A stretch of DNA of 64,000 nucleotides from an uncultured Bacteroidales bacterium (GTDB taxonomy: Bacteria; Bacteroidota; Bacteroidia; Bacteroidales; UBA932). The notes beneath the pieces were generated by a model. That model saw only the letters and a program-made list of their open reading frames with translations. It did not search any database and had not been told where the DNA came from. The DNA lies in assembly GCA_946406355.1 (NCBI GenBank), contig CAMJKI010000005.1:1-64000 (forward strand), in the 5' to 3' direction. Below are positions 4,591 to 33,480 of the stretch, piece after piece. Every line of letters starts with the position of its first letter. Positions within the stretch are counted from its first letter, which is position 1. The position numbers and the translations under genes were made by a program.

Positions 4591-4696
4591 GCGAAATGTA
4601 TGTGGTTAATATTCAGCAACTTGCGTGTTTCCCGGTGCAATCTGATTTGCACCGGGAAACACTTAACTTGTTAATTCCTAGCAGTTTGCATTTTGC
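4591..4696 (-). repeat. 106-bp palindromic element, copy A (core hairpin 4627-4660)
   Basis: Core GTTTCCCGGTGCAA-TCTGAT-TTGCACCGGGAAAC with 36 bp on each side; ends GCGAAATGTA (4591) and TGCATTTTGC (to 4696) are near-inverted. Confidence 0.88.
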
Positions 4697-16031: not shown

Positions 16032-17711
16032 ATGGCAGACGAAAAGATTATTTTTTCCATGAACAGGGTGAGCAAGGTGCTTCCCCATAATAACAAGGTT
16101 ATCCTCAAGGACATCTGGCTGGGCTTCTACTATGGGGCCAAGATTGGCATCATCGGCCTTAACGGGTCCGGTAAAAGTACCCTTCTTAAGATTATCGCAG
16201 GAGTAGAGAAATCCTATCAGGGAGAGGTTGTCTGGGCGCCCGGCTACAGCGTGGGCTACCTGGAGCAGGAGCCGCAGATGGATCCGGAAAAAACGGTACT
16301 GGAAGTGGTTCAGGAGGGTGTTCAGCCTGTCATGGATATCCTGCAGGAATACAACGACATTTCCCTCAAGTTCATGGAGCCGATGGACGACGACGAAATG
16401 AACCGCCTCATCGAGCGCCAGGGAGAACTCACGGAACAGATAGAGCATGTGGGCGGATGGGAGATTGATTCCAAGCTGGAGAGGGCTATGGACGCCCTGC
16501 AGTGCCCGCCTTCGGACGCTTTGGTGAAAAACCTTTCCGGCGGTGAACGGCGCCGGGTGGCCCTGTGCCGCCTGCTGCTGCAGGAACCGGACGTGCTGTT
16601 GCTGGACGAACCCACCAACCACCTGGACACGGAGAGTATCCAGTGGCTGGAAGCCCATCTGCAGCAGTACAAGGGTACGGTAATCGCCGTTACGCACGAC
16701 CGCTACTTCCTGGACAACGTCGCCGGCTGGATCCTGGAGCTGGACCGCGGCGAAGGCATTCCCTGGAAGGGCAACTACTCCAGCTGGCTGGAGCAGAAGA
16801 CCAAGCGTCTGGCCCAGGAAGAAAAGGCCGAAAGCAAGCGCCGCAAAACCCTGGAACGGGAACTGGAGTGGGTGCGGATGGCCCCCAAGGCCCGCCAGGC
16901 CAAGCAGAAGGCCCGTCTGGGCGCCTACGAAAAACTGGCATCGGCCGATACCAAACAGAAGGAAGCCAACCTGGAAATCTATATTCCCAACGGACCGCAC
17001 CTGGGCAACAAGGTAATCAAGTTCACGGATGTGTCCAAGGCCTATGGGGACAAACTGCTGTTCGAGCACCTGTCCTTCGAACTGCCGCCGGCTGGCATCG
17101 TGGGCGTTATCGGCCCGAACGGTGCCGGCAAAACCACGCTTTTCCGCCTGATTATGGGCATTGAAAAACCGGACAGCGGCACCATTGAGATTGGCGACAC
17201 GGTAAAGATTTCCTACGTGGACCAGCAGCACCGTTCCATCGACCCCGACAAGACCGTTTACGAAACCATTGCGGGCAATTCCGAATGGGTGCGCATGGGC
17301 GGCCGGGACGTGAACGCCCGCGCATGGGTGTCCCGCTTCAACTTCTCCGGGGCCGATCAGGAAAAGCTCTGCGGCGTGCTCTCCGGCGGCGAACGCAACC
17401 GCCTGCACCTGGCTTTAACCTTGAAGGACGAGGGCAACGTGCTCCTGCTGGACGAACCCACCAACGATGTGGATGTGAACACCATCCGCGCCCTGGAAGA
17501 AGGCCTGGACGGCTTTGCGGGCTGCGCGGTGGTTGTTTCACACGACCGCTGGTTCCTGGACCGCATCGCCACCCACATCCTGGCCTACGAAGGCGAGGGC
17601 AAAGTGGTGTTCTTCGAGGGCAACTACCAGGAATACGAAGCCAACCGCAAGCTCCGCCTGGGCCCGGACGCCGAACCCAAGCGCTTCAAGTACAAGAAAC
17701 TGATGGAATAA
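16032..17711 (+). CDS. ettA: ABC-F ribosome-associated ATPase, EttA type
   Basis: MADEKIIFSMNRVSKVLPHNNKVILKDIWLGFYYGAKIGIIGLNGSGKSTLLKIIAG; two Walker A motifs and two LSGGE signatures. Confidence 0.92.
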   Translation: MADEKIIFSMNRVSKVLPHNNKVILKDIWLGFYYGAKIGIIGLNGSGKSTLLKIIAGVEKSYQGEVVWAPGYSVGYLEQEPQMDPEKTVLEVVQEGVQPVMDILQEYNDISLKFMEPMDDDEMNRLIERQGELTEQIEHVGGWEIDSKLERAMDALQCPPSDALVKNLSGGERRRVALCRLLLQEPDVLLLDEPTNHLDTESIQWLEAHLQQYKGTVIAVTHDRYFLDNVAGWILELDRGEGIPWKGNYSSWLEQKTKRLAQEEKAESKRRKTLERELEWVRMAPKARQAKQKARLGAYEKLASADTKQKEANLEIYIPNGPHLGNKVIKFTDVSKAYGDKLLFEHLSFELPPAGIVGVIGPNGAGKTTLFRLIMGIEKPDSGTIEIGDTVKISYVDQQHRSIDPDKTVYETIAGNSEWVRMGGRDVNARAWVSRFNFSGADQEKLCGVLSGGERNRLHLALTLKDEGNVLLLDEPTNDVDVNTIRALEEGLDGFAGCAVVVSHDRWFLDRIATHILAYEGEGKVVFFEGNYQEYEANRKLRLGPDAEPKRFKYKKLME

Positions 17712-17731
17712 TTCCCCTCCCCGCCGCCGTT

Positions 17732-17837
17732 GCAGAATGCAACTTGCTGATGCTTAGCTACTTAACTGTTTCCCGGTGCAATTTAATTTGCACCGGGAAA
17801 CCTTTTATCCGCTCTGTATCAAGTAGTTCCGTTCTGC
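17732..17837 (+). repeat. 106-bp palindromic element, copy B (core hairpin 17768-17801)
   Basis: GCAGAATGCAACTTGCTG...GTTTCCCGGTGCAA-TTTAAT-TTGCACCGGGAAAC...CTGTATCAAGTAGTTCCGTTCTGC; ungapped 94/106 identity to copy E by manual alignment. Confidence 0.93.
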
Positions 17838-17857
17838 GCTAATCTTTGGGTATGCGG

Positions 17858-18604
17858 CTAGTATCTAAAAGAAATACCCACTTTGAAGCTGTCGTATCTG
17901 TTACAGAAGCCATGAGGACCTATACCTGCTGGAGAGTAACTGGCAGTAAGGCCGATGTTTTTATACCAGATGCCGGCTTTGAGTTCCAGACGGAATCCCA
18001 GATTCCCTGAAGCATTGTCCTGGATCAGGGTATTCCTGCCCCGCGTATCATGCCTGAATTGAAGGACATCCTCATACTCATTATAATAGGCGGCTCCGCC
18101 CACATAACTATTCCGTTGTGTGGTCCATCCAATCCCGGGGAGCAGCGAAATGCCGGTTTTCCAGTTACCGAATTCACGGACGTAACCCAACTGGAGAGAA
18201 ACAGCGTTTTCGATAAAGTTACTCCAAGTTGCTGTTAACGCTAATGCTGGCAAAGGAACAATACTGCCATCCAAGCCAAAGGCATACTTATTCACCTGAA
18301 GGAAATGGCGATCTGAGGAAACCGTTATTCCGCAAGTGAAATAATTCTCGTTACGCCAGGGCCGGGCTTGCAACTCAACGAGGGTTAATTCTGCATAACA
18401 CCCTACGGGGCGCATCGCATCCGGAGTCTGGCATGCGAAACTGGCACCCGCCTCCACATTGCCGAAGGCAACGACAGACCATGCCGGCTTCACGTTCTTT
18501 GCCGTAACGCCAAAAAGGGGCGCCTCAAAATTGAGTTTTGGATTCTGCGCATTTGCAGTTACAATTGTTAATGCAAATACGATAAGGGTAAGCATTCTTT
18601 TCAT
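17858..18604 (-). CDS. Secreted / outer-membrane-type hypothetical protein
   Basis: Signal peptide MKRMLTLIVFALTIVTANAQ; beta-rich sequence ending in an aromatic (SFRY). Confidence 0.6.
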   Translation of the reverse strand: MKRMLTLIVFALTIVTANAQNPKLNFEAPLFGVTAKNVKPAWSVVAFGNVEAGASFACQTPDAMRPVGCYAELTLVELQARPWRNENYFTCGITVSSDRHFLQVNKYAFGLDGSIVPLPALALTATWSNFIENAVSLQLGYVREFGNWKTGISLLPGIGWTTQRNSYVGGAAYYNEYEDVLQFRHDTRGRNTLIQDNASGNLGFRLELKAGIWYKNIGLTASYSPAGIGPHGFCNRYDSFKVGISFRY

Positions 18605-18615
18605 TATCGGGGTAT

Positions 18616-19062
18616 TTATTGTTTTTCAAACATGGATCTCAAATCCTCCAGCGAGGCCGGTCCTTCAAGATAAAGAAGGGTGATTTTCCACTGTCCTTCT
18701 TCCAGGGCGCGGGCCTGAAAGCACAAATAACGCTTGGTCTTCCCTTTCGATTTGGGTTGAATCAGGGCATAGGTAAGCCGTCCGCCCACCTTCTCTGTTT
18801 CCTTCACGGCAGCGGCATCGGCATCCTGTTCCACCAACCCCGCCACTTGATTGGCAAGCCTTTCATCAACTTGGAAGTTAACGCCACGGTAGTAATCAAG
18901 TTTATATGCGGCCATGCTGTTTCCACGGACCTCTGTGATTACCATTTGCTTTCCAGGAACCACTTTGCCTTCAAATACGGAATGGCATTTAAGGTCACGC
19001 TGGGCCGATGCCGCGCCGCTCATAAGCAGCAATAAAAACAAGGTAACGACTATCCTTTTCAT
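18616..19062 (-). CDS. Secreted hypothetical protein
   Basis: Signal peptide MKRIVVTLFLLLLMSGAASAQ; operon-like spacing with the sigma/anti-sigma genes. Confidence 0.65.
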   Translation of the reverse strand: MKRIVVTLFLLLLMSGAASAQRDLKCHSVFEGKVVPGKQMVITEVRGNSMAAYKLDYYRGVNFQVDERLANQVAGLVEQDADAAAVKETEKVGGRLTYALIQPKSKGKTKRYLCFQARALEEGQWKITLLYLEGPASLEDLRSMFEKQ

Positions 19063-19475
19063 CGCTTGAATATCTCTATAAGGTTAGCTTCCGCCGGGTT
19101 TGCCACGCTGAAGAAATCGGCCAGGGAGGCATCCACCTCGGCCATAACCGTTTTCTTATCAGAAGAAACCTCCCCATAAGCATTGATAGTTAACTGGTCA
19201 TCGGCTTTGTCCCTTTTTTGAATACCAAAACCAATAGCAATCATAACCGCCATACTGGCGGCAACAGCCGAGTATGACAGAATGTATACTGCCCGATCTT
19301 TGCGCCTTTTCTTTTCCCTGCCGATGGACAGATATCCCAATACTCCCCGGAGTTCCTCAAACAGGGGGTCGTCCGTTCCGGCAGCATAGATGGCCAGTTC
19401 CTTCTCCTCTTCCGGCGTGGTATCGGCCTCAAAGTATCGCTGCATCAGATTTGCTAATTTTTCTTTATTTGTCAT
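19059..19475 (-). CDS. Putative anti-sigma factor (single-TM membrane protein)
   Basis: Short cytosolic N-terminus, TM SYSAVAASMAVMIAIGFGI; overlaps the upstream ECF sigma gene. Confidence 0.65.
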   Translation of the reverse strand: MTNKEKLANLMQRYFEADTTPEEEKELAIYAAGTDDPLFEELRGVLGYLSIGREKKRRKDRAVYILSYSAVAASMAVMIAIGFGIQKRDKADDQLTINAYGEVSSDKKTVMAEVDASLADFFSVANPAEANLIEIFKR

Positions 19476-19944
19476 GTTTTAAGGCCATTCTAAGAGTCTT
19501 ACGTGCTCGCGAAAGCTGCATCCTGACAGCCGCGGCTTCCATTCCAAGTTCTTTTGCAATATTCTCCAACGGGCGTCCTCCATATTCTTTCTCTTCCAGG
19601 ATGTATCGTTGTGTTTTTGTGAGTTCCGATTCTATCTTTTGGCGCATCCGAACGAACGCTCTCTCTTTTTCCTCCCTGTTTTGGGGATCCTCCGCGATAT
19701 CGGTTTCCAGGGGAATCGGCCTTTTTCGCCGGCGCTCATTGAGGCTGGCATTCCTGACAGCCCTGGATAGCAATGCATTGGCTTCGGCTTCCGATTGCAA
19801 AGGATAATTCCGCTGCCACAGCCGGACAAAACAGTCTTGAAGGACGTCCTCGGCATCATCGGCATCGGGCAATATCCTTAAGGGTATCGCCTTCAGCTTT
19901 TGTCGAAGCCTCACAAATGCTTCTGTCAAGTAGTCCTTTGCCAT
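19465..19944 (-). CDS. ECF RNA polymerase sigma factor
   Basis: DADDAEDVLQDCFVRLWQR; TKTQRYILEEKEYGGRPLENIAKELGMEAAAVRMQLSRARKTLR. Confidence 0.87.
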   Translation of the reverse strand: MAKDYLTEAFVRLRQKLKAIPLRILPDADDAEDVLQDCFVRLWQRNYPLQSEAEANALLSRAVRNASLNERRRKRPIPLETDIAEDPQNREEKERAFVRMRQKIESELTKTQRYILEEKEYGGRPLENIAKELGMEAAAVRMQLSRARKTLRMALKHDK

Positions 19945-20084
19945 AGCTGCGGCTATAGAGCAGTAATTGTGCCACCTACTTTAATAACACCGTAATACCA
20001 AAAACGCAACACGAATGTGCCAAATTGTTTTTCCGATATACATTCCGTGATTCAGTAGATAGCCGAAGGCCGCCATTGCGGTCT

Positions 20085-20190
20085 GCGAAATGCAAGCTGC
20101 TGTTTTTCAGCGATTTAACTGTTTCCCGGTGCAATTAGATTTGCACCGGGAAACCCTTTATTCGCTCTGTATCAGGCAGTTCCGTTCTGC
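20085..20190 (+). repeat. 106-bp palindromic element, copy C (core hairpin 20121-20154); contains the RAYT stop codon
   Basis: GCGAAATGCAAGCTGCTG...GTTTCCCGGTGCAA-TTAGAT-TTGCACCGGGAAAC...CTGTATCAGGCAGTTCCGTTCTGC; ungapped 94/106 to copy E. Confidence 0.93.
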
Positions 20191-21113
20191 GACTCTTTTG
20201 CCAAGTGAAGGAACTTCCGGACTTGATAGGGTTTTGCTCCGGTTTCCCGAACCAGAATATCGGCAATAGCAAGCTTCTGGCCGATTGGCAGAGCCAGAAG
20301 GGCCGGGATGTTCGCGGCATAACTGGAGCGCCTGCATACTTCCAGCATGCTCTCATAAATCTGGTCGGAATTACTGTCGTGCTGTTCCTTGATGTCATAC
20401 TCTGACCCAGTATTGGAGTTTATGGCAATCAGCATAGTTTCATAATCTCCATAGCAGGCAATCAGTGCTTCTTTATCCAAAGGCAGGTACTTGCCGATGA
20501 TATAATCCGTAAGCTGTTCACTCTCACTTTCAGTCAGTTTTTCATACATGCTTCTCAATACGGGATAATCCAACCATATTTGACGCTTATATAATGCATC
20601 CACCCTGGTTAGAGCTATCATGAGCCGATGAGAACACCTTCGCCTGTCAATCTTTTCGGAAAACGGATGATCCGAGTTAAGGTAGGCCAGAAAGTTCCAT
20701 CGACAGTCTTCGGCCCGATTCCCCAATTTCTTTTCTACGTGATTGTTGAATAAATAGGCAATGGCAGTCCGTATCTTCTTTAAGCCGATTTTGGGAGCAT
20801 TGCCATATGCCTTGCGAAAAATGGGCCCCTTCCTGCCGGAGTTCCTATTGAAAGCCAGCACATATTTGGAAGTATATTCTCCCACGAACAGAGACATTAT
20901 CTCTGTGGCAAACACCTGAACCAGCGAGTGAATATGGTCAAACATCAGACACAACCCCCAAACAGGAACGCCGTATTTCTTGGCAGCGATTGAGTAGATA
21001 GTCAGGAACACAAGCCTGTCCAAAACGGAATAAAAGAGCAGCTTTCCGTCATAAGTGTTCTGGTAAATGTGTTGCAGACCTTCTTCCTGCACTTTCCTTT
21101 TTACGCCCCGCAT
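20172..21113 (-). CDS. REP-associated tyrosine transposase (RAYT)-like, Y1/IS200-type HUH transposase
   Basis: MRGVKRKVQEEGLQHIYQNTYDGKLLFYSVLDR...GLCLMFDHIHSLVQ (HUH motif HIH) and AIAYLFNNHVEKKL (candidate catalytic Tyr, cf. YIHNNPVKA in RAYTs); SD-like AAGGAG 8 nt upstream of ATG 21113. Confidence 0.82.
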   Translation of the reverse strand: MRGVKRKVQEEGLQHIYQNTYDGKLLFYSVLDRLVFLTIYSIAAKKYGVPVWGLCLMFDHIHSLVQVFATEIMSLFVGEYTSKYVLAFNRNSGRKGPIFRKAYGNAPKIGLKKIRTAIAYLFNNHVEKKLGNRAEDCRWNFLAYLNSDHPFSEKIDRRRCSHRLMIALTRVDALYKRQIWLDYPVLRSMYEKLTESESEQLTDYIIGKYLPLDKEALIACYGDYETMLIAINSNTGSEYDIKEQHDSNSDQIYESMLEVCRRSSYAANIPALLALPIGQKLAIADILVRETGAKPYQVRKFLHLAKESQNGTA

Positions 21114-21215
21114 AATATAACTCCTTGATTCTTTGTGTTTTGAATACTTCCCGGTGCAATTAGATTTGCACCGGGAAACAGTTATTATCAACAGTATGAG
21201 GAAGTTACATTTTGC
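21110..21215 (-). repeat. 106-bp palindromic element, copy D (core hairpin 21146-21179); overlaps the RAYT start codon
   Basis: Minus strand GCAAAATGTAACTTCCTC...GTTTCCCGGTGCAA-ATCTAA-TTGCACCGGGAAGT...AGGAGTTATATTATGC; the same 36-34-36 spacing. Confidence 0.87.
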
Positions 21216-21344
21216 ATCCCCATCCTGCTGGCTATTTGCAAGGATAGGGAATTAGAAGAGGACTTTCAATAGTTCGGTTGAAAGAAATCTGAAAGTTTTT
21301 CTGTTTTTTACGATTAGGGACAAAGGGGGGAAATATGGGACGAA

Positions 21345-21998
21345 TTACCGCCTGATGTGGATGACCAGTTTGCCGTCGTAGTAGGGGTCGTGGAGCCAGG
21401 AGGAGACGGGCCAGGTGGAAACGCTGCCGCGGGGCAGCTTGTGGCGGGCCATGACGGCGGCAATTTCTTCATTCACATCGCCACCCTTCAGGTACAGGAT
21501 GCCCTGGGTGTATTTCCCCTTCACCCAGGGATAGAAATCCGGCAGGGAGGCCACGGCGCGGGACACCACAAAGTCGAAGGTGCCCGGCAGGGATTCGGCC
21601 CGAGCATTCACCACCTCTACGTTCTTAAGGTTTAGGGCCGATGCAACCGCCTGTGCCACAATCGTTTTCTTTCCAACAGAGTCGCATAGGACAAAGCGGG
21701 CCGATGGAAACAGGATGGCCAGCGGAATGCCGGGGAAGCCGCCGCCGGTACCCAGATCCAGAACCCGGGAAGCAGCAAAGGCCTCCGGCAGACCGGGCAC
21801 GGTAAGAAGGTAGCGGGCGATGGCCAGCGAATGCAGCACATGATGATCGTACAGGCCGTCGATATCCTTCCGTGAAATCACATTAATCTGGGCGTTCCAC
21901 TCCCGGTACAGGCTGTCCAGGGCGCAGAACTGCTGCTCCTGGGCGGGCGAAAGGGAAAAATCGGCCCGGATAAACTCCAAAAACTCCAAAGCCGTCAT
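21345..21998 (-). CDS. rsmG: 16S rRNA (guanine527-N7)-methyltransferase RsmG
   Basis: LYREWNAQINVISRKDIDGLYDHHVLHSLAIARYL...VLDLGTGGGFPGIPLAILFPSARFVLCDSVGKK. Confidence 0.94.
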   Translation of the reverse strand: MTALEFLEFIRADFSLSPAQEQQFCALDSLYREWNAQINVISRKDIDGLYDHHVLHSLAIARYLLTVPGLPEAFAASRVLDLGTGGGFPGIPLAILFPSARFVLCDSVGKKTIVAQAVASALNLKNVEVVNARAESLPGTFDFVVSRAVASLPDFYPWVKGKYTQGILYLKGGDVNEEIAAVMARHKLPRGSVSTWPVSSWLHDPYYDGKLVIHIRR

Positions 21999-22543
21999 TC
22001 CACTTCCCCCCTTAGCATCATTTCGGCCAGGTGCTGTTTGCCCCGACGGATGCGCGTGCGCACCGTATTAAGCTCCAGGTCCAGTTCCCGGGCAATGGCC
22101 TCGTATTCCATCTCTTCTATCATGTACTTGATCATCACGTCTTTATACAGCGAAGGCAGCTCTTCTATAAACTGCATCAGGCGCTGGTGCACCTCGTCGT
22201 TGATAATCTCTTCTTCCGGCGTGGTGTCGGTGAGCTGGGGCGCGTCACTCTGCCCTTCCTTCTTTTCGTCTTCCCGCTGGATGCTGCTCAGGTGGTCCAG
22301 TGCCGTTCGGGTGGCAATGGTGAGCAGCCAGGGACGGAATTCCCGCGTAGTGTCAAAGGATTTCAGGGCCGAAAAAGCCTTCTGGAAGCTCTCCGACACC
22401 ACATCGTCCACATCGGCCTTCCATTTGAAATAGCCGCTCACCCGGCCCCGGACGGCCCGTTCGTGAATCTGGTACAGCATCCGGAAAGCGGTCTGGTTGC
22501 CGGACATGGCCTGTTCTATAAGTTCTTTTTCGTTGTATTCCAT
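21995..22543 (-). CDS. ECF RNA polymerase sigma factor
   Basis: MEYNEKELIEQAMSGNQTAFRMLYQIHERAV...DDVVSESFQKAFSALKSFD...YEAIARELDLELNTVRTRIRRGKQHL. Confidence 0.9.
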   Translation of the reverse strand: MEYNEKELIEQAMSGNQTAFRMLYQIHERAVRGRVSGYFKWKADVDDVVSESFQKAFSALKSFDTTREFRPWLLTIATRTALDHLSSIQREDEKKEGQSDAPQLTDTTPEEEIINDEVHQRLMQFIEELPSLYKDVMIKYMIEEMEYEAIARELDLELNTVRTRIRRGKQHLAEMMLRGEVE

Positions 22544-22544
22544 A

Positions 22545-22570
22545 GATTCTTCGCTTCGCTCAGAATGACA
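22545..22570. repeat. Short dispersed repeat of the CHSERSEE type
   Basis: GATTCTTCGCTTCGCTCAGAATGACA; the antisense frame reads CHSERSEES; lies in the polA/sigma intergenic gap. Confidence 0.65.
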
Positions 22571-22572
22571 GG

Positions 22573-25200
22573 TTAATGGGCTTCCAGCCAGTTCTTTCCG
22601 GCGGAACATTCTACAATCAGGGGAACGGACAGCTCCATCACGTGCTCCATCACGTCCACCACTATTTCCTTAAGCCTATCCACCTCTTGCGGCAGGGCAT
22701 CGAACAGCAGTTCGTCATGGATTTGCAGCACCATGCGGCTCTTCAGGCCTTCTTCCTTAAGCCGCCGGGCCACGCCTATCATGGCCAGCTTGATGATATC
22801 GGCCGATGTCCCCTGGATGGGGGCGTTAACGGCGTTGCGTTCGGCCAGGGCACGGACGGTGGCGTTGCGGGCAGTGATGTCCGGCAGGTAACGCCGGCGC
22901 CCGAAGAGCGTTTCCACATAACCGTTCTCCCGGGCGAAGGCAATGCTGCTGTCAATGAAGGAACGGATGGCCGGGAAGGATGCAAAGTAACCGTCTATCA
23001 GCTCTTTGGCAGCACTGCGCGAAAGGTGCAGGCGCTGCGCCAGGCCAAAGGAAGAGATGCCATACATGATGCCGAAATTGGCCGTCTTGGCCATACCCCG
23101 CTGCTCACGCGTAACCTCCTGAACCGGAATGCCGAAGATTTTGGCGGCCGTGGCGGCGTGCACGTCCACCCCCTCGCGGAAAGCCTGCACCAGATGGGTG
23201 TCCTGGCTCAGGTGCGCCATGATGCGCAGCTCTATCTGCGAGTAGTCGGCACTTACAATTACGCCGTCCGGTGCACCGGGGATGAAGGCCTTGCGGATTT
23301 CCTTGCCGCGCTCGGTACGCACGGGGATATTCTGCAGGTTGGGGTTAGAGCTGGAAAGCCTTCCCGTTGCCGTAAGTGCCTGGTTGAACGTGGTATGCAC
23401 CCGTCCGTCCTTGGGCGAAATGTAGGAAGGGAACGGCTCTATATAGGTGGAAAGCAGCTTTTTCACCGCCCGGAATTCCAGGATTTCCTCTACCACGGGA
23501 TGGCGGTCGGCTATGGCCAGGAGGGTGGCTTCGTCGGTAGGATACTGGCCGGCCTTGCCGCTCTTTTTGGCCTTGGGATCCAACTTCAGCTTCTCAAAAA
23601 GCACATCGCCCACCTGCTTGGGGGAGGAGATATTCAGCGCCGGCTCCTGCACCATCTCACGGATACGGATTTCCCGTTCCGCCAGTTCTTTCCGGAGTCC
23701 GTCGGCATATACGCGAATCTGTTCCAAATCTACCTTTACGCCGTCCCGTTCCATCTGCGCCAGCACCTTGGCCAGCGGTTCCTCCATAGATCCGTAAAAT
23801 GGAGGCAGGCTTTCCCGGAGCCTTTCGCCCAGGGGGATCAGCACCGCCGCTTCCTTCAGTCGGGAAGGTTCGGCCTCATCGGGCACGTCGTCAAACAGAG
23901 AGCCGGTAACGGCCGATTCCGGGGCCTCTTCCAGGCTCACACCCAAATAGGTCTGCGCCAGGGCAGCCAGCTCGTGGCTGCGCTCCGGATTCAGGACATA
24001 GTGCATGAGCGGGATATCGTACCAGGTCCCTTCCAGGCCGATTCCTTCGGCCGCCAGGGCATTGGCCATCCGCTTAAGGTCCACTCCATACTTGGCCACC
24101 GCAGCGTCTTCCAGCACGTTTCGGCCTTCCAGCAAGGGCATGGTTGCCACCTTCCCCTCAGCTGCCAGCAACAGCTGGTTTCCATTAAGAACCAACCCGG
24201 CTTTACCAGATTTCTTAGCGGCTATAAGGACATCTTTAACAGGGGAAATAACCAGATTTTCCGGAACGGGGGATGTCCCCTTTTCCGTAGCATCGGCTAT
24301 ATTTTTCGCGGAGGAAAAGGGGGTATCCCCCATCCCTGCCTTGAGATACTTTTTCAGCGAAGCAAACTCGTACTTCTGGAACAGATCGGCCAGTACGGGT
24401 TGGAACTGGCCCGTGTAGCGCATGTCTTCCAGCGTTACGGGCAGTTCCATGTCGGTTTTGATGGTTACCAGCGTTTTGGACAGGGCCATGTGGGGTTCGG
24501 CCTCCCGGAACTGGTCCTGCTGGCGAGCGCTCAGTTCATCCAGATGGGCGTAAATGTTCTCCATGCTGCCATACTTGGCAATGAGTTTGGCGGCGCCTAC
24601 CTCTCCAACGCCCTTTACGCCCGGCACATTGTCGGCCGAATCGCCGCAAAGAGCCAGCATATCAATCACTTGCAACGGGCTAGAGATACCCCATTTCTCG
24701 CACAGGGCAGCGCTGTCCACCAGTTCCGCCTCGGCCCCGGATTTGCCGGGCTTCAGCTGGAAGGCATGCGGGCCGATGAGCTGACCGTAGTCCTTGTCCG
24801 GCGTTACCATGTACACGTCCAACTGTTCCGATGCAAATTGCGTGGCGATGGACCCCAGCACATCATCGGCCTCAAAGCCGGGGATGGTGAGCACGGGAAT
24901 ATTCATGGCCTGCACCAATTCCGTGAGCGGCTGCAGGGCGTCTATAACCAGCTGCGGGGTTGGCGGACGAGTACCTTTGTACTCCGGATACAACTGATTG
25001 CGAAAGGTGCCGCCCGGCGGGTCGAAGGCCACAAGCAGATGCGTAGGCTTCTCCCGCTCAATCATTTCCAGCAGGTACTTGGTAAACCCGTACAGAATGG
25101 ACATATCGGCTCCCTGGGAGTTGATCATGGGCCTGCGCAGGAAGGCGTAATACATTTTGAACACCAGCGCGTGCCCGTCTATGAGGAAGAGTTTTGCCAT
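22573..25200 (-). CDS. polA: DNA polymerase I
   Basis: N-terminal FEN domain MAKLFLIDGHALVFKMYYAF; polymerase motifs SADYSQIELRIMAHLS, GMAKTANFGIMYGIS, LQIHDELLFD. Confidence 0.96.
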   Translation of the reverse strand: MAKLFLIDGHALVFKMYYAFLRRPMINSQGADMSILYGFTKYLLEMIEREKPTHLLVAFDPPGGTFRNQLYPEYKGTRPPTPQLVIDALQPLTELVQAMNIPVLTIPGFEADDVLGSIATQFASEQLDVYMVTPDKDYGQLIGPHAFQLKPGKSGAEAELVDSAALCEKWGISSPLQVIDMLALCGDSADNVPGVKGVGEVGAAKLIAKYGSMENIYAHLDELSARQQDQFREAEPHMALSKTLVTIKTDMELPVTLEDMRYTGQFQPVLADLFQKYEFASLKKYLKAGMGDTPFSSAKNIADATEKGTSPVPENLVISPVKDVLIAAKKSGKAGLVLNGNQLLLAAEGKVATMPLLEGRNVLEDAAVAKYGVDLKRMANALAAEGIGLEGTWYDIPLMHYVLNPERSHELAALAQTYLGVSLEEAPESAVTGSLFDDVPDEAEPSRLKEAAVLIPLGERLRESLPPFYGSMEEPLAKVLAQMERDGVKVDLEQIRVYADGLRKELAEREIRIREMVQEPALNISSPKQVGDVLFEKLKLDPKAKKSGKAGQYPTDEATLLAIADRHPVVEEILEFRAVKKLLSTYIEPFPSYISPKDGRVHTTFNQALTATGRLSSSNPNLQNIPVRTERGKEIRKAFIPGAPDGVIVSADYSQIELRIMAHLSQDTHLVQAFREGVDVHAATAAKIFGIPVQEVTREQRGMAKTANFGIMYGISSFGLAQRLHLSRSAAKELIDGYFASFPAIRSFIDSSIAFARENGYVETLFGRRRYLPDITARNATVRALAERNAVNAPIQGTSADIIKLAMIGVARRLKEEGLKSRMVLQIHDELLFDALPQEVDRLKEIVVDVMEHVMELSVPLIVECSAGKNWLEAH

Positions 25201-25264
25201 AAGTTTTCAAAGATACAAAAAAGGATTCAAAGAAAAAATATTTGGCGGTTTCGTCAAGAATTGC

Positions 25265-25272
25265 TATCTTTG
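25265..25272 (+). promoter_or_regulatory. Bacteroidota -7 box (TATCTTTG) upstream of rpmH
   Basis: TATCTTTG 36 nt before ATG 25308. Confidence 0.55.
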
Positions 25273-25307
25273 CAGCCCTTACGCGAAAAATATAAAAACG
25301 AGATATC

Positions 25308-25460
25308 ATGAAGAGAACATTTCAACCTTCCCGCCGCAAGCGTGTGAACAAGCACGGCTTCCGCGCCCGCATGGCTTCTGCCAACGGCCGCCGCGTCCTT
25401 AGCGCCCGCCGTCGTCATGCCCGCAAGAAACTCAGCGTATCCGACGAAGACCGCTGGTAG
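25308..25460 (+). CDS. rpmH: 50S ribosomal protein L34
   Basis: [50 protein letters not shown]; 50 aa, below the ORF-track cutoff. Confidence 0.97.
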
Positions 25461-25482
25461 TCTTTAGCAGGTTAGAGAAACA

Positions 25483-25516
25483 AAACCGCAAGCCTTTCTG
25501 GCCTGCGGTTTTTTGT
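25483..25516 (+). terminator. Rho-independent terminator after rpmH
   Basis: AACCGCAAGCC-TTTCT-GGCCTGCGGTT followed by TTTTT. Confidence 0.8.
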
Positions 25517-25526
25517 TGCAGGGACT

Positions 25527-25632
25527 GCAGAATGGAACTGCCTGATACAGAGCGAATAAAGGGTTTCCCGGTGCAAATCTAATTGCACCGGGAAACAATT
25601 AAGTGGCTAAGCAGCAGCGAGTTGCATTCCGC
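25527..25632 (-). repeat. 106-bp palindromic element, copy E (core hairpin 25563-25596)
   Basis: Minus strand GCGGAATGCAACTCGCTG...GTTTCCCGGTGCAA-TTAGAT-TTGCACCGGGAAAC...CTGTATCAGGCAGTTCCATTCTGC. Confidence 0.93.
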
Positions 25633-25637
25633 AACGG

Positions 25638-26981
25638 CTACTTCTTAATAGGGTACAGACGCAGCAGGAGCATGATCAGCAGGGCAAAGGCGGCCGGGAA
25701 GAGGGAGAACAGCGACCATACCATCTGCTGCACCGAGGCCTCGTTGGTAATGGTGACAACGGTTTGCCCCGTGACAGGGTCGGTGCCGGAAATGAAGCCG
25801 GCCAGGCCCAGGAAAGCGGCCACCAGGGCGCCGGAAACGGCCGAACCGAACTTCTGTGCCATGGTGCCGGAAGAGAAGATGAGGCCGGTGGAGGAGGTGC
25901 CGTTCTGCTCGGTGGCGTAATCGGCCACATCGGCGTACATGGACCACAGCAGCGGAGAATACAGGCCGATGCCGATGGAGGTGACAATCACCATCCCCAC
26001 CATTACCCAGATGAATGCCGGATCCATGGGAATGAAGAAGAAGGCCACAGAAGTTACGGCGCAGATGGCAGCAGCCCAGCTGAAGGCTTTCTTCTTGGAA
26101 CCCACCCACTTGGTGAACTTGGGAGAAAGGCCGCCGAAGATCATGCAGGTTACCTCGCCGAAGGTCATGAACACCGTGTAATTGATGATGAGGCCGTTCA
26201 CCGTAACATCGCCGTGCAGGCAATATTCCAGCAGATAGCCTGCCACCGCATAGCGGAATCCGTTGAAGAAATTGGTGCAGATGCCGATGAGCGTAAGGTA
26301 AATCCAGGGCTTGTTGCGGAACAGGTCGGCAAAGGGCTTGAAGGAGAACTTTTCGGCCCGGATAGGCTTCAGGCGCTCCTTGGTGAGCAGGCCGCAAGCC
26401 AGGGTGCCCAGAGCGGCCAGGGCGCCCAGCACCACGCCCAAAACGGCATACTGATGCGCCTCGCTCCCCCCTACCAGCTTCTGCAGATAAGGGAAGGAAA
26501 GCAGGGTTATGAAACCCATGGCATAGGCGCCCACCATCCGGTACGAGGAAAACTCGTTCTTCTCGTTGTCATCGGCCGTCATCACGCCCAGGAGCGAGCC
26601 GTAAGGCACATTCACCGCCGTGTACACAGCCATCATCAGCAGGTACATGGAATAGGCCCAGATGCGCTTTCCCACTATGCCGAAGTCCGGCGTAAAGAGC
26701 AGCAGGGCAAACACAACGCCCAGCGGAATGGCGCCGAAGATGAGCCAGGGCCGATAAGTGCCCCAGCGGGACTGGGTGCGGTCGGCCAGGGCGCCCATCA
26801 TGGGGTCGGTGACCACATCGAAGAGGCGGGCCACCAGCATGAGGGTTGCCGCATCGGCCACGGTAAGGCCGAAGATGTTGGTGAAAAACAGCGGGAACGC
26901 GATGGACATCACCTTCCAGGTGATTCCTCCGGCGGCGGCATCACCCAGGGCGTAGCCAATTTTCTCGGAAAACTTTGCCAT
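25638..26981 (-). CDS. MFS / GPH-family sugar:cation symporter
   Basis: MAKFSEKIGYALGDAAAGGITWKVMSIAFPLFFTNIFGL...DVVTDPMMGALADRTQSRWGTYRPWL. Confidence 0.92.
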   Translation of the reverse strand: MAKFSEKIGYALGDAAAGGITWKVMSIAFPLFFTNIFGLTVADAATLMLVARLFDVVTDPMMGALADRTQSRWGTYRPWLIFGAIPLGVVFALLLFTPDFGIVGKRIWAYSMYLLMMAVYTAVNVPYGSLLGVMTADDNEKNEFSSYRMVGAYAMGFITLLSFPYLQKLVGGSEAHQYAVLGVVLGALAALGTLACGLLTKERLKPIRAEKFSFKPFADLFRNKPWIYLTLIGICTNFFNGFRYAVAGYLLEYCLHGDVTVNGLIINYTVFMTFGEVTCMIFGGLSPKFTKWVGSKKKAFSWAAAICAVTSVAFFFIPMDPAFIWVMVGMVIVTSIGIGLYSPLLWSMYADVADYATEQNGTSSTGLIFSSGTMAQKFGSAVSGALVAAFLGLAGFISGTDPVTGQTVVTITNEASVQQMVWSLFSLFPAAFALLIMLLLRLYPIKK

Positions 26982-30611: not shown

Positions 30612-33392
30612 TCAATCAATTCTAGCTGTTTCCATTTCACCGGTATAACGGACAGTAACGCTGCCTGCAGCATCCGGATCATAGCCGAAAGGATGCATGG
30701 GGTCGGCCACCACAACGCGGAAGCTGCGTTCCTGCAGCATGCCCGGGAAGGAGCCTTCCCGCTTGCCGATGGTGAGGGTGCGCTCGGCATCGTTCCAATC
30801 CAGGCCGATGGTGGCGAAGGCGCCTTTTTCGTAGCCGTAGGTGAGGCCGTCGTCCTCGTACAGAGTAAAGTGGGCGTCGGCACCGGCGTACACAATCAGG
30901 AGAAGGTTATCGGCCGGTTTCTCGTCGCTCCATTCCATGTCCGGGCCCACGGGGAGGATGCTGCCGGCCCGCACGTACAGCGGCATACGCTCGTAGGGAG
31001 CGTCCACCGTAAGTGTGAGGCCGCCAGGGATATAAGCACCGGAATAGAAGTCGTACCAGCCGCCCTCGGGGAAGTACACCTGGCGGCTGCGGGCCTGGTA
31101 CTCATACACCGGGCAGGGCATCAGGGCCGGGCCGAACATCCACTGGTCGGAGAGGTCACGCACCTGCATATCCTGCGGGAAATCCATCGGCAGGCCGCGC
31201 ATGAGGGTGTAATCCTCGCGGTTCACGGCGCCGGCCAGGGAATACAGGTACGGCATCAGGCGATAACGCAGGCGCATGTACCACAGGATGCTCTCGTAGG
31301 CGGGAGTACCAGCATCGGCAATGTACATGAGCTCCCGACGGGGGAACTGTCCGTGGGTGCGGAACAGCGGAACAAAAGTGCCGAACTGGTGCCAGCGGGT
31401 CTGGAGTTCCTGCCATTCAGGCAGGTTGGCCGGGCTGTAGAATTTGTTCATCACCGAGAATCCGCCGATGTCCATGCCCCAGAACGGGATGCCGCTCATG
31501 GAGAAATCCAGGCCGGCGGCCATCTGCATGCGCATATCGGTCCAGGAAGTGCCGATATCGCCGCTCCAGGTGGCGGTGCTGTAACGCTGCTCGCCGATAA
31601 AACCGCTGCGGGTGAGGAGGAATACGCGCTTGTCGGGTTCCACGCTCCGCTGGCCGTTGTAGATGGCATCGGCGTTCACGATGGAATAGGCGTTGAGGTA
31701 TTCGGTGGAAGGGCCCAGGGCCGTGGGGGTTAGCAGCCACTTGAGGTAGTCCATGGGCAGACAGTCGCGCAGGTTGGGTTCGCTGGCGTCCATCCACCAG
31801 GCGTCAATTTTGCGGTTGTACTTGGTGTACAGGCTTTCGTCTATCTGCCGCCAGAACATCTTGCGACCGCCTTCGGCATAGGCGTCATAGAAGGTCTGTT
31901 CGTGTCCCAGCCAGTCCTGCAGGCCCACATCCTCGGCATGGGTATAGGCATAACCGGCTGCCTTCAGTTCCTTGTAATGGTCGGTATTGGTGTAGAATTT
32001 GGGCCAGACGGAAATCATGAAACGGGCGTTCATGGCGTGAACGGCATCCAGCATTCCTTCCGGGTCCGGGAAACGGGTTTCATCAAACTCGTGGCTTCCC
32101 CACTGGTCCTCTTTCCAATAGTGCCAGTCCTGGACGATGTTATCTACCGGAATGTGGCGACGGCGCATTTCGGCCAGCGTTTCCACCAGCTCCTCCTGGG
32201 TGCTGTAGCGCTCGCGGCTCTGCCAGAATCCCAGTACCCACTTGGGCATAACGGGGGCCTTGCCGGTGAGAGTGCGGTATCCGTGAATTACCTCATCGTA
32301 GCTCTTGCCGGCAATGAAGTAATAGTCGGCCTGGGGCTCGAATTCGCTCCAGAAACTGATGCCGGCCTCTTCCTCCGGGGAAAGCAGTTCCGCTACCCGC
32401 AAGCCAATGTAAGAGACATCGCCGTCCGGTTCCCATTCCACCTTGATGGGGGTTTTAACGCCCTTTTCCAGATGGACGGTGAACTTGTAGCTGTTGGGGT
32501 TCCAGGCCGGACGCCAGCGGCGGCTCATTACCTCCTTCCCGTCCACCAGGGTATGCTGGAAGCCAGCGTAATACTGGATAAAGTGGTAATCGGCCGATTC
32601 CGGGGCCTCCAGATAGCCTTCGTAAACGACGCTTGCGCCAGCCAGGGGGACGGCCGGGAGATTCTTCACGTGGAATTCGGTCTCGTAATACAGGCTGTCT
32701 TCGCGCTGCACCAGGAGTTCTCCCTTGGCCGGCCGGTAGGTGCCGGTGAGGGCACCTTCCACGCCGTCTTTGTCGTATAGCTTGAAGGAAGCACCCAGTT
32801 GCTTATAAGGATACGGATTGCCCCAGCGGCTCAGGGAATAGGCATCGAACATCAGACCGTAGCCCTTGGTGGAGACTACCATCGGCACGCTCACCTTGGT
32901 GTTGTACTGGTACAGTTCCTCGCTGCGGTTCTTGTGGTCGAACTCCCCTGCCTGCTGTTGTCCCAGGCCGTAGAAAGACTCGTCGGGCGTGCTGGAGAAC
33001 TGCGTACGCACGCTGTAGGCCTTCTTTCCTTCCACCTCAATGGGCTCAAAGCTGGAACGGCCTTCGCCGGTGAGCAAGTTCCCTTCGGCATCAAAGAAGT
33101 CCACCGTAGCCGTGGCCTTATTCACCACTACGGTAAGGGCCGATGTTTTTACGGTCACCTTGTTTTCGGCCTTCTGCACCGTAAGAGGCTCTGTATAGGC
33201 CTGCTGCGGCACAACGGCCAGGCTCTTGCGGTCCCGGAACTTTCCGTCCGGAGTCTCCGTCACCCGGATCACCTCCGGCGTAATCACCTCCAGGCGAATG
33301 GTCTTGTCCCCGCAGGGAACGCTTACGGTGCTGTTCTGGCTGCAGGCAAATAGCAGCAGCAAACTCGCCAGAGCGAAAAATCCAACTTTCAT
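30612..33392 (-). CDS. GH31 alpha-glucosidase/alpha-xylosidase with a PA14-like insertion
   Basis: GFWQSRERYSTQEELVETLAEMRRRHIPVDNIVQDWHYW; DAWWMDASEPNL; SGDIGTSWTDMRMQ; GGWYDFYSGAYIPGG. Confidence 0.92.
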   Translation of the reverse strand: MKVGFFALASLLLLFACSQNSTVSVPCGDKTIRLEVITPEVIRVTETPDGKFRDRKSLAVVPQQAYTEPLTVQKAENKVTVKTSALTVVVNKATATVDFFDAEGNLLTGEGRSSFEPIEVEGKKAYSVRTQFSSTPDESFYGLGQQQAGEFDHKNRSEELYQYNTKVSVPMVVSTKGYGLMFDAYSLSRWGNPYPYKQLGASFKLYDKDGVEGALTGTYRPAKGELLVQREDSLYYETEFHVKNLPAVPLAGASVVYEGYLEAPESADYHFIQYYAGFQHTLVDGKEVMSRRWRPAWNPNSYKFTVHLEKGVKTPIKVEWEPDGDVSYIGLRVAELLSPEEEAGISFWSEFEPQADYYFIAGKSYDEVIHGYRTLTGKAPVMPKWVLGFWQSRERYSTQEELVETLAEMRRRHIPVDNIVQDWHYWKEDQWGSHEFDETRFPDPEGMLDAVHAMNARFMISVWPKFYTNTDHYKELKAAGYAYTHAEDVGLQDWLGHEQTFYDAYAEGGRKMFWRQIDESLYTKYNRKIDAWWMDASEPNLRDCLPMDYLKWLLTPTALGPSTEYLNAYSIVNADAIYNGQRSVEPDKRVFLLTRSGFIGEQRYSTATWSGDIGTSWTDMRMQMAAGLDFSMSGIPFWGMDIGGFSVMNKFYSPANLPEWQELQTRWHQFGTFVPLFRTHGQFPRRELMYIADAGTPAYESILWYMRLRYRLMPYLYSLAGAVNREDYTLMRGLPMDFPQDMQVRDLSDQWMFGPALMPCPVYEYQARSRQVYFPEGGWYDFYSGAYIPGGLTLTVDAPYERMPLYVRAGSILPVGPDMEWSDEKPADNLLLIVYAGADAHFTLYEDDGLTYGYEKGAFATIGLDWNDAERTLTIGKREGSFPGMLQERSFRVVVADPMHPFGYDPDAAGSVTVRYTGEMETARID

Positions 33393-33480
33393 AGTGTCAA
33401 TTAATTACGGGTTTCCCGGTGCAATTTTATTTGCACCGGGAAACATTTAAATTACTGTCTATCAGGTTATTGAGTATCTC
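33375..33480 (+). repeat. 106-bp palindromic element, copy F (core hairpin 33411-33444), degenerate arms
   Basis: Perfect core GTTTCCCGGTGCAA-TTTTAT-TTGCACCGGGAAAC; the left end GAAAAATCCAACTT matches copy B GCAGAATGCAACTT at 11/14 in register; TATCAGG at the same offset as copies C and E. Confidence 0.72.

Follow-up and report, generated by a model that had tools for sequence, protein, structure and literature searches.

The closest described relatives of the locus reported here are the RAYT/TnpA_REP proteins and their REPtrons (E. coli TnpA_REP, PDB 4ER8; class 2, PMC6006769), in which a single-copy gene for a protein of the Y1 HUH fold is flanked by cognate palindromes, with many further copies dispersed between genes near gene 3' ends. 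Experiments on RAYTs have mainly used the E. coli enzyme and a few members of group 3 (PMC8266576); how a RAYT chooses its palindrome, and whether and how RAYTs spread palindromes, is an open question. We analysed a stretch of 64,000 nucleotides (the window) from a rumen-type Bacteroidales bacterium and found a unit with the same general organization. It differs from RAYT/TnpA_REP in that no GTAG (or GTGG) guide is present at the 5' foot of the hairpin, the element is longer and sets a constant frame around a private hairpin, the protein carries a C-terminal extension of ~165 aa, and the copies are counted in tens, not hundreds.

Other systems share part of this organization. REPINs and BIMEs, too, are short non-autonomous palindromes that go with a RAYT; they are built of two inverted REP hairpins with a spacer, whereas the window element has one central hairpin and symmetric arms. 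In TIRYTs and their TIRtrons (PMC3733652), inverted repeats lie on both sides of a Y1 gene and can extend into its ends (5'ov, 3'ov), and many TIRYTs also have a long C-terminal part. In contrast to these, the window repeat possesses a central hairpin and its consensus, by inspection, lacks the GGGGWSAS motif, while the C-terminal part shows no DnaA_C or HTH match. Members of IS200/IS605 (IS608, ISDra2) have the same catalytic-domain fold as the window protein, whereas the window unit has two alike ends and one gene copy for 25 elements. From the same phylum, TnpA_Y1 subclass 2.6 (Bertels group 5, Bacteroidetes; PMC6006769) agrees with the window unit in its atypical flanking hairpins with copies elsewhere in the genome. 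It does not agree in motifs and length: subclass 2.6 proteins have NH[LIV]H, WQ and YIH[QN]NP in ~179 aa, and the window protein has DHIH, Phe99 and YLFNNH in 313 aa. The same holds for the window protein's relatives within its genus (DHxH for NHxH, Phe for the conserved Trp, Y-x-x-N-N for YIH[QN]NP, ~310 aa). This genus branch is thus a RAYT variant without canonical REPs that falls outside the definitions of subclass 2.6 and TIRYT. No description of the branch or of its frame was found in the open-access papers searched, and it adds to the RAYTs a Bacteroidales branch with an unexplained C-terminal domain and a frame of its own.

The RAYT gene and its flanking elements

The unit comprises the following features.

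20172..21113, - strand: RAYT-like Y1/HUH gene, 313 aa (from sequence, profiles and fold); ATG at 21113-21111, stop TGA at 20174-20172; catalytic domain at about residues 1-145, helical C-terminal extension at about 150-313
20085..20190, + strand: element C, downstream copy; contains the last codons and stop codon of the RAYT gene
20121..20154: core hairpin of C, GTTTCCCGGTGCAA-TTAGAT-TTGCACCGGGAAAC
21110..21215, - strand: element D, upstream copy, inverted relative to C; contains the AAGGAG and ATG of the RAYT gene
21148..21177: core hairpin of D, TTCCCGGTGCAA-TTAGAT-TTGCACCGGGAA
21237..21275, - strand: possible Bacteroidota-type promoter of the RAYT gene, TTG...TATCCTTG, upstream of D, read by eye from the sequence

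C and D are inverted 106-bp copies of one repeat and bracket the gene, which is single-copy in the host genome. The AAGGAG (21121-21126) and ATG (21111-21113), both on the - strand, lie within D, and the TGA (20172-20174) lies within C. These features, together with an HUH motif and a candidate Tyr, had been pointed out in an initial annotation of the sequence and are all present. The same annotation had the reading frame exactly between C and D; it is bracketed by them, and the gene overlaps both rather than lying strictly between.

The annotation had also called the product a RAYT-like Y1 transposase and proposed a profile search, which bears this out at the level of the family. The window protein alone scores below the cut-offs of Pfam Y1_Tnp (3e-4, 21.4 bits; gathering score 23) and NCBIfam REP_Tyr_transpos (7e-4), but 36 of 43 family members match Y1_Tnp, the best at 3.6e-10, and it is these family-wide matches that make the assignment firm. 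An AlphaFold model built with seven sequences (mean pLDDT 80) has the strand and helix order of Y1 proteins, and its only PDB matches at E < 0.001 are IS200 (2F4F), TnpA_REP (4ER8) and IS608 (2VJV). The HUH residues H60 and H62, the candidate catalytic tyrosine Y120 and, four residues on, N124 form the Y1 core. All four are invariant in the 43-sequence alignment, as are His15, Phe27, Met57, Asn89, Asn123 and Trp139; H60, H62, Y120, N123 and N124 are kept in 67 of 67 sequences. Beyond the catalytic domain, ~165 residues are helical in the model and match no Pfam family in a search with the 43 members, DnaA_C, HTH_23 and HTH_28 included (E 0.01). As its single-copy gene is flanked by a dispersed palindrome whose copies are extragenic and often near gene 3' ends, the window protein is a RAYT by fold, motifs, copy number and cognate repeats.

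Copies and structure of the 106-bp element

Six core copies occur within the window: C, D and four dispersed copies.

17732..17837, + strand: copy A, adjoining the 3' end of an ABC-F gene
25527..25632, - strand: copy E, adjoining the stop codon of an MFS transporter gene
4591..4696, + strand: weaker match
33375..33480, - strand: weaker match, more diverged

Pattern and similarity searches, on which the genome-wide copy counts rest, detected 25 exact CCGGTGCAA-N6-TTGCACCGG cores in 2.34 Mb and none of the same pattern read backwards, so that the repeat is not due to chance. It is the cognate repeat of the window RAYT. The consensus of the 25 copies is symmetric: tGCaRAATGYAA, cTGA-N3-TCAG and TTAA are followed by the stem GTTTCCCGGTGCAA-N6-TTGCACCGGGAAAC and then by the mirror image. 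The central hairpin, of 30-34 nt with a stem of 12-18 bp, pairs reliably and is the only supported stem of the element. It shows compensatory changes (GTTTCCC, GATTCCC and GGTTCCC, each with its matching partner), and of 2000 permutations 1 does as well as its true pairing. In the outer arms, 15-24 of 37 positions pair, and covariation is absent from the window element family. The initial description of C and D as palindromic elements is right as to two inverted copies, whereas a single hairpin with 53-bp arms spanning the whole 106 bp is ruled out by the lack of covariation in the arms. Side hairpins inside the frame were rejected likewise, no covariation being seen in the window family or across the genus.

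All 25 copies are outside called ORFs. For ~17, a stop codon is found no more than 30 nt from an element end, often between convergent genes; as the surrounding ORFs were called by length only, these counts are rough. The copies differ by up to 25%, which suggests that the spread may be old. No convincing target-site duplication was found at the 25 copies. The tags GTAG, GTGG and CGTC are not enriched in the arms flanking RAYTs; GTAG is found in 7 of 144 arms, against 16.1 expected from shuffles, and is absent from the window consensus. The proposal of a Bacteroidota REP/RAYT system is supported, except that the canonical GTAG foot is lacking.

A genus-wide family with private hairpins in a shared frame

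In a set of 101 genomes, ~61 of them from the genus, the protein is present in 39 genomes, every one from this genus; the 40 other genera lack it. Profile searches retrieve full-length members only from the genus, and catalytic-domain relatives from elsewhere in the order carry NHxH and YIHNNP-like motifs; a catalytic-domain tree sets the genus family apart with a support of 100/98. RAYTs of the genus sit at different loci. No tRNA neighbours were found. Matching of the upstream flank to the inverted downstream flank exceeds the 99th percentile of mismatched pairs at 38 of 71 loci, and at 36 of 71 a stem 7-mer is common to the hairpins on both sides. These counts are lower bounds, about half of the loci having given no matched palindrome pair. 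The stems mostly differ from one RAYT to another and are private to single lineages: pairs of RAYTs above ~60% protein identity often share flanks, and pairs below rarely do. The annotation had held that homologues without the 106-bp element would speak against the system; relatives do lack this sequence, but in at least half of them another palindrome pair takes its place.

A second such pair is found in the same genome. Its RAYT (L033, 2002-2919 of contig C50) is 41% identical to the window RAYT, and its palindrome CTCCCTGT..ACAGGGAG, with the stem CTCCCTGTGA, is present in 32 copies, of which two lie at the ends of that RAYT gene. The weak profile scores of the window protein would fit an accidental association of gene and repeat. 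This is hardly conceivable given the second independent RAYT-palindrome pair, the recurrence of cognate flanks in the genus, and the open frames with invariant catalytic residues.

The varying stems are surrounded by a frame, TAA-N5-TGA-N3-TCA-N5-TTA, common to both palindrome families of the host genome. The frame was read from these two families and then tested on the other 34 units, comprising 136 arms. TAA-N5-TGA occurs in 31 of these arms and TGA-N3-TCA and TCA-N5-TTA in 27 each, against mostly 0-9 arms for the half-sites at other spacings. A frame score of at least 13/20 is reached by 72 arms, where shuffles give 1.45, and 26 of the 34 units have one or more such arms. A short nCACG-like end motif lies about five bases outside the frame. 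No covariation of frame positions was seen across the genus, so the frame would seem to be a site in double-stranded DNA, not a stem. The exact pattern is found 214 times in 81 genus genomes (backward control, 6). The frame does not mark RAYTs beyond the genus, being present at 0 of 30 RAYT loci from other Bacteroidales. A few other genera do have the pattern in high numbers, with no link to RAYTs seen: G208, from another Bacteroidales genus, has 75 exact copies against 3 in the control and none near its RAYT, and these are perhaps the site of a regulator.

Some features of hairpins and loci in the genus are also worth recording. GATTT or AAATC is present in 18 of 72 hairpin loops, against 1.5 expected from shuffled loops, despite the differing stems. 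At one locus (L137-L140; RAYTs L057, L062, L078 and L084), the flanking genes are ~94-97% identical and the RAYTs ~51-63% at the protein level, so that by sequence comparison the RAYT appears to evolve much faster than its neighbours or to be replaced. L141 and L143 have the same upstream neighbour and upstream flank as L142, with RAYTs only 34% identical.

The interlock of gene and repeats, with repeats forming both gene ends, had been presented in the annotation as unusual; it divides into two parts when scored across the genus with element ends placed from the frame. Of 26 units that could be scored, 18 have their stop codon within the downstream element; the start codon is within the upstream element in 1 of 27, the window's own, and additionally in its ortholog from Bacteroidales isolate Tb.RUG.329. 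The 3' interlock is therefore the rule of the family and the 5' interlock, the unusual part, a lineage trait. Overlap of REPs or TIRs with Y1 genes at either end has been reported previously ('5'ov', '3'ov'; PMC3733652).

Possible movement of the elements and inversion of the unit

We consider the locus, with a probability of roughly 80%, to be a REPtron-like unit, composed of a chromosomal single-copy Y1 HUH endonuclease/ligase (the RAYT) and ~25 non-autonomous elements of ~106 bp. The chemistry established for Y1 HUH enzymes (PMC8266576) leads us to infer that the window protein cleaves and rejoins its cognate repeat in single-stranded form. The HUH domain would bind the private hairpin when the element is single-stranded, and Tyr120 would cut beside it and rejoin the element elsewhere, mostly just 3' of stop codons; the element would multiply while the RAYT gene stays single. 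The C-terminal extension may read the shared frame, a guess prompted by the confinement of both to the genus family.

Comparison with the sister species Tb.RUG.329 is consistent with mobilisation of the repeats by the RAYT, which we likewise infer. Its RAYT, 86% identical to that of the window, is found on the same side of the rsmG gene. The window stem is present there in four copies, one with a mismatch, and in none of 150 other genomes of the genus, so the element copy number differs about six-fold between the sister species (25 against 4). The intergene of Tb.RUG.329 that matches 4591-4696 is without the element; its flanks are too diverged for an exact junction, and no clean empty site was found at this place. 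Separately, a 2.2-kb segment with sigma and anti-sigma-like genes (17838-20084), located between the direct copies A and C, is missing at the corresponding place in Tb.RUG.329.

If the 1131-bp unit were instead an IS200-like insertion sequence, gene and ends would move together and the dispersed 106-bp copies would be deletion derivatives. Two inverted ends enclosing a Y1 gene, non-autonomous copies and the different loci of the genus RAYTs would all fit. This is nevertheless a very unlikely account: the host genome has one gene copy per palindrome type, each end is near-symmetric, unlike the left and right ends of IS200/IS605, the ortholog adjoins the same rsmG gene in the sister species, and the RAYT unit has no match in plasmids and phages.

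The preference for positions just 3' of genes and the dyad frame without covariation could also be those of host features (bidirectional terminators, mRNA-end stabilisers or protein-binding sites), and the RAYT a domesticated protein that binds them and has ceased to move them; a passage of PMC8266576, citing earlier work, has RAYTs behaving like housekeeping genes. The six-fold difference in copy number, the restriction of stems to single lineages and the invariant catalytic residues make this explanation rather unlikely.

The REPtron-like unit may be capable of more than dispersal, since its two inverted copies could let it flip in place. Of four genomes with a RAYT beside rsmG, two (L133, L136) have it in one orientation relative to conserved flanks and two (L134, L135) in the other, and hairpins bound the inverted stretch; the same is seen at a second RAYT locus (L150 against L151 and L152). 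In Tb.RUG.329, the ABC-F gene between two elements has the reverse of its orientation in the window. All these genomes are draft assemblies and a single inversion could be an assembly error, which is unlikely for all of them because they recur. We also entertain, tentatively and with considerable doubt, a broader proposal for the genus, namely a radiation of two-part RAYTs in which the HUH domain would recognise the private hairpin, single-stranded and placed between two frames, while the C-terminal extension would recognise the dyad frame in double-stranded form, hairpin specificity being repeatedly reassigned in one scaffold and the paired elements serving in addition as sites of in-place inversion. 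Dozens of RAYTs on one scaffold are available in a single genus, and at least 36 come with a matched pair of natural hairpins in a constant frame, so the recognition code could be read by comparing them.

Next to the RAYT unit, the polA-sigma-rsmG block (21345-25200) is inverted with respect to a conserved noncoding stretch (25232-25470) in the window, unlike in most genomes of the genus; G111 perhaps shares this inversion. A search of 17500-26000 against Rfam returned only two microRNA matches at chance level, none in the noncoding stretch. The latter, ~200 nt in length, is conserved in 75 of 81 genus genomes, usually just 3' of rsmG, and is possibly an undescribed small RNA.
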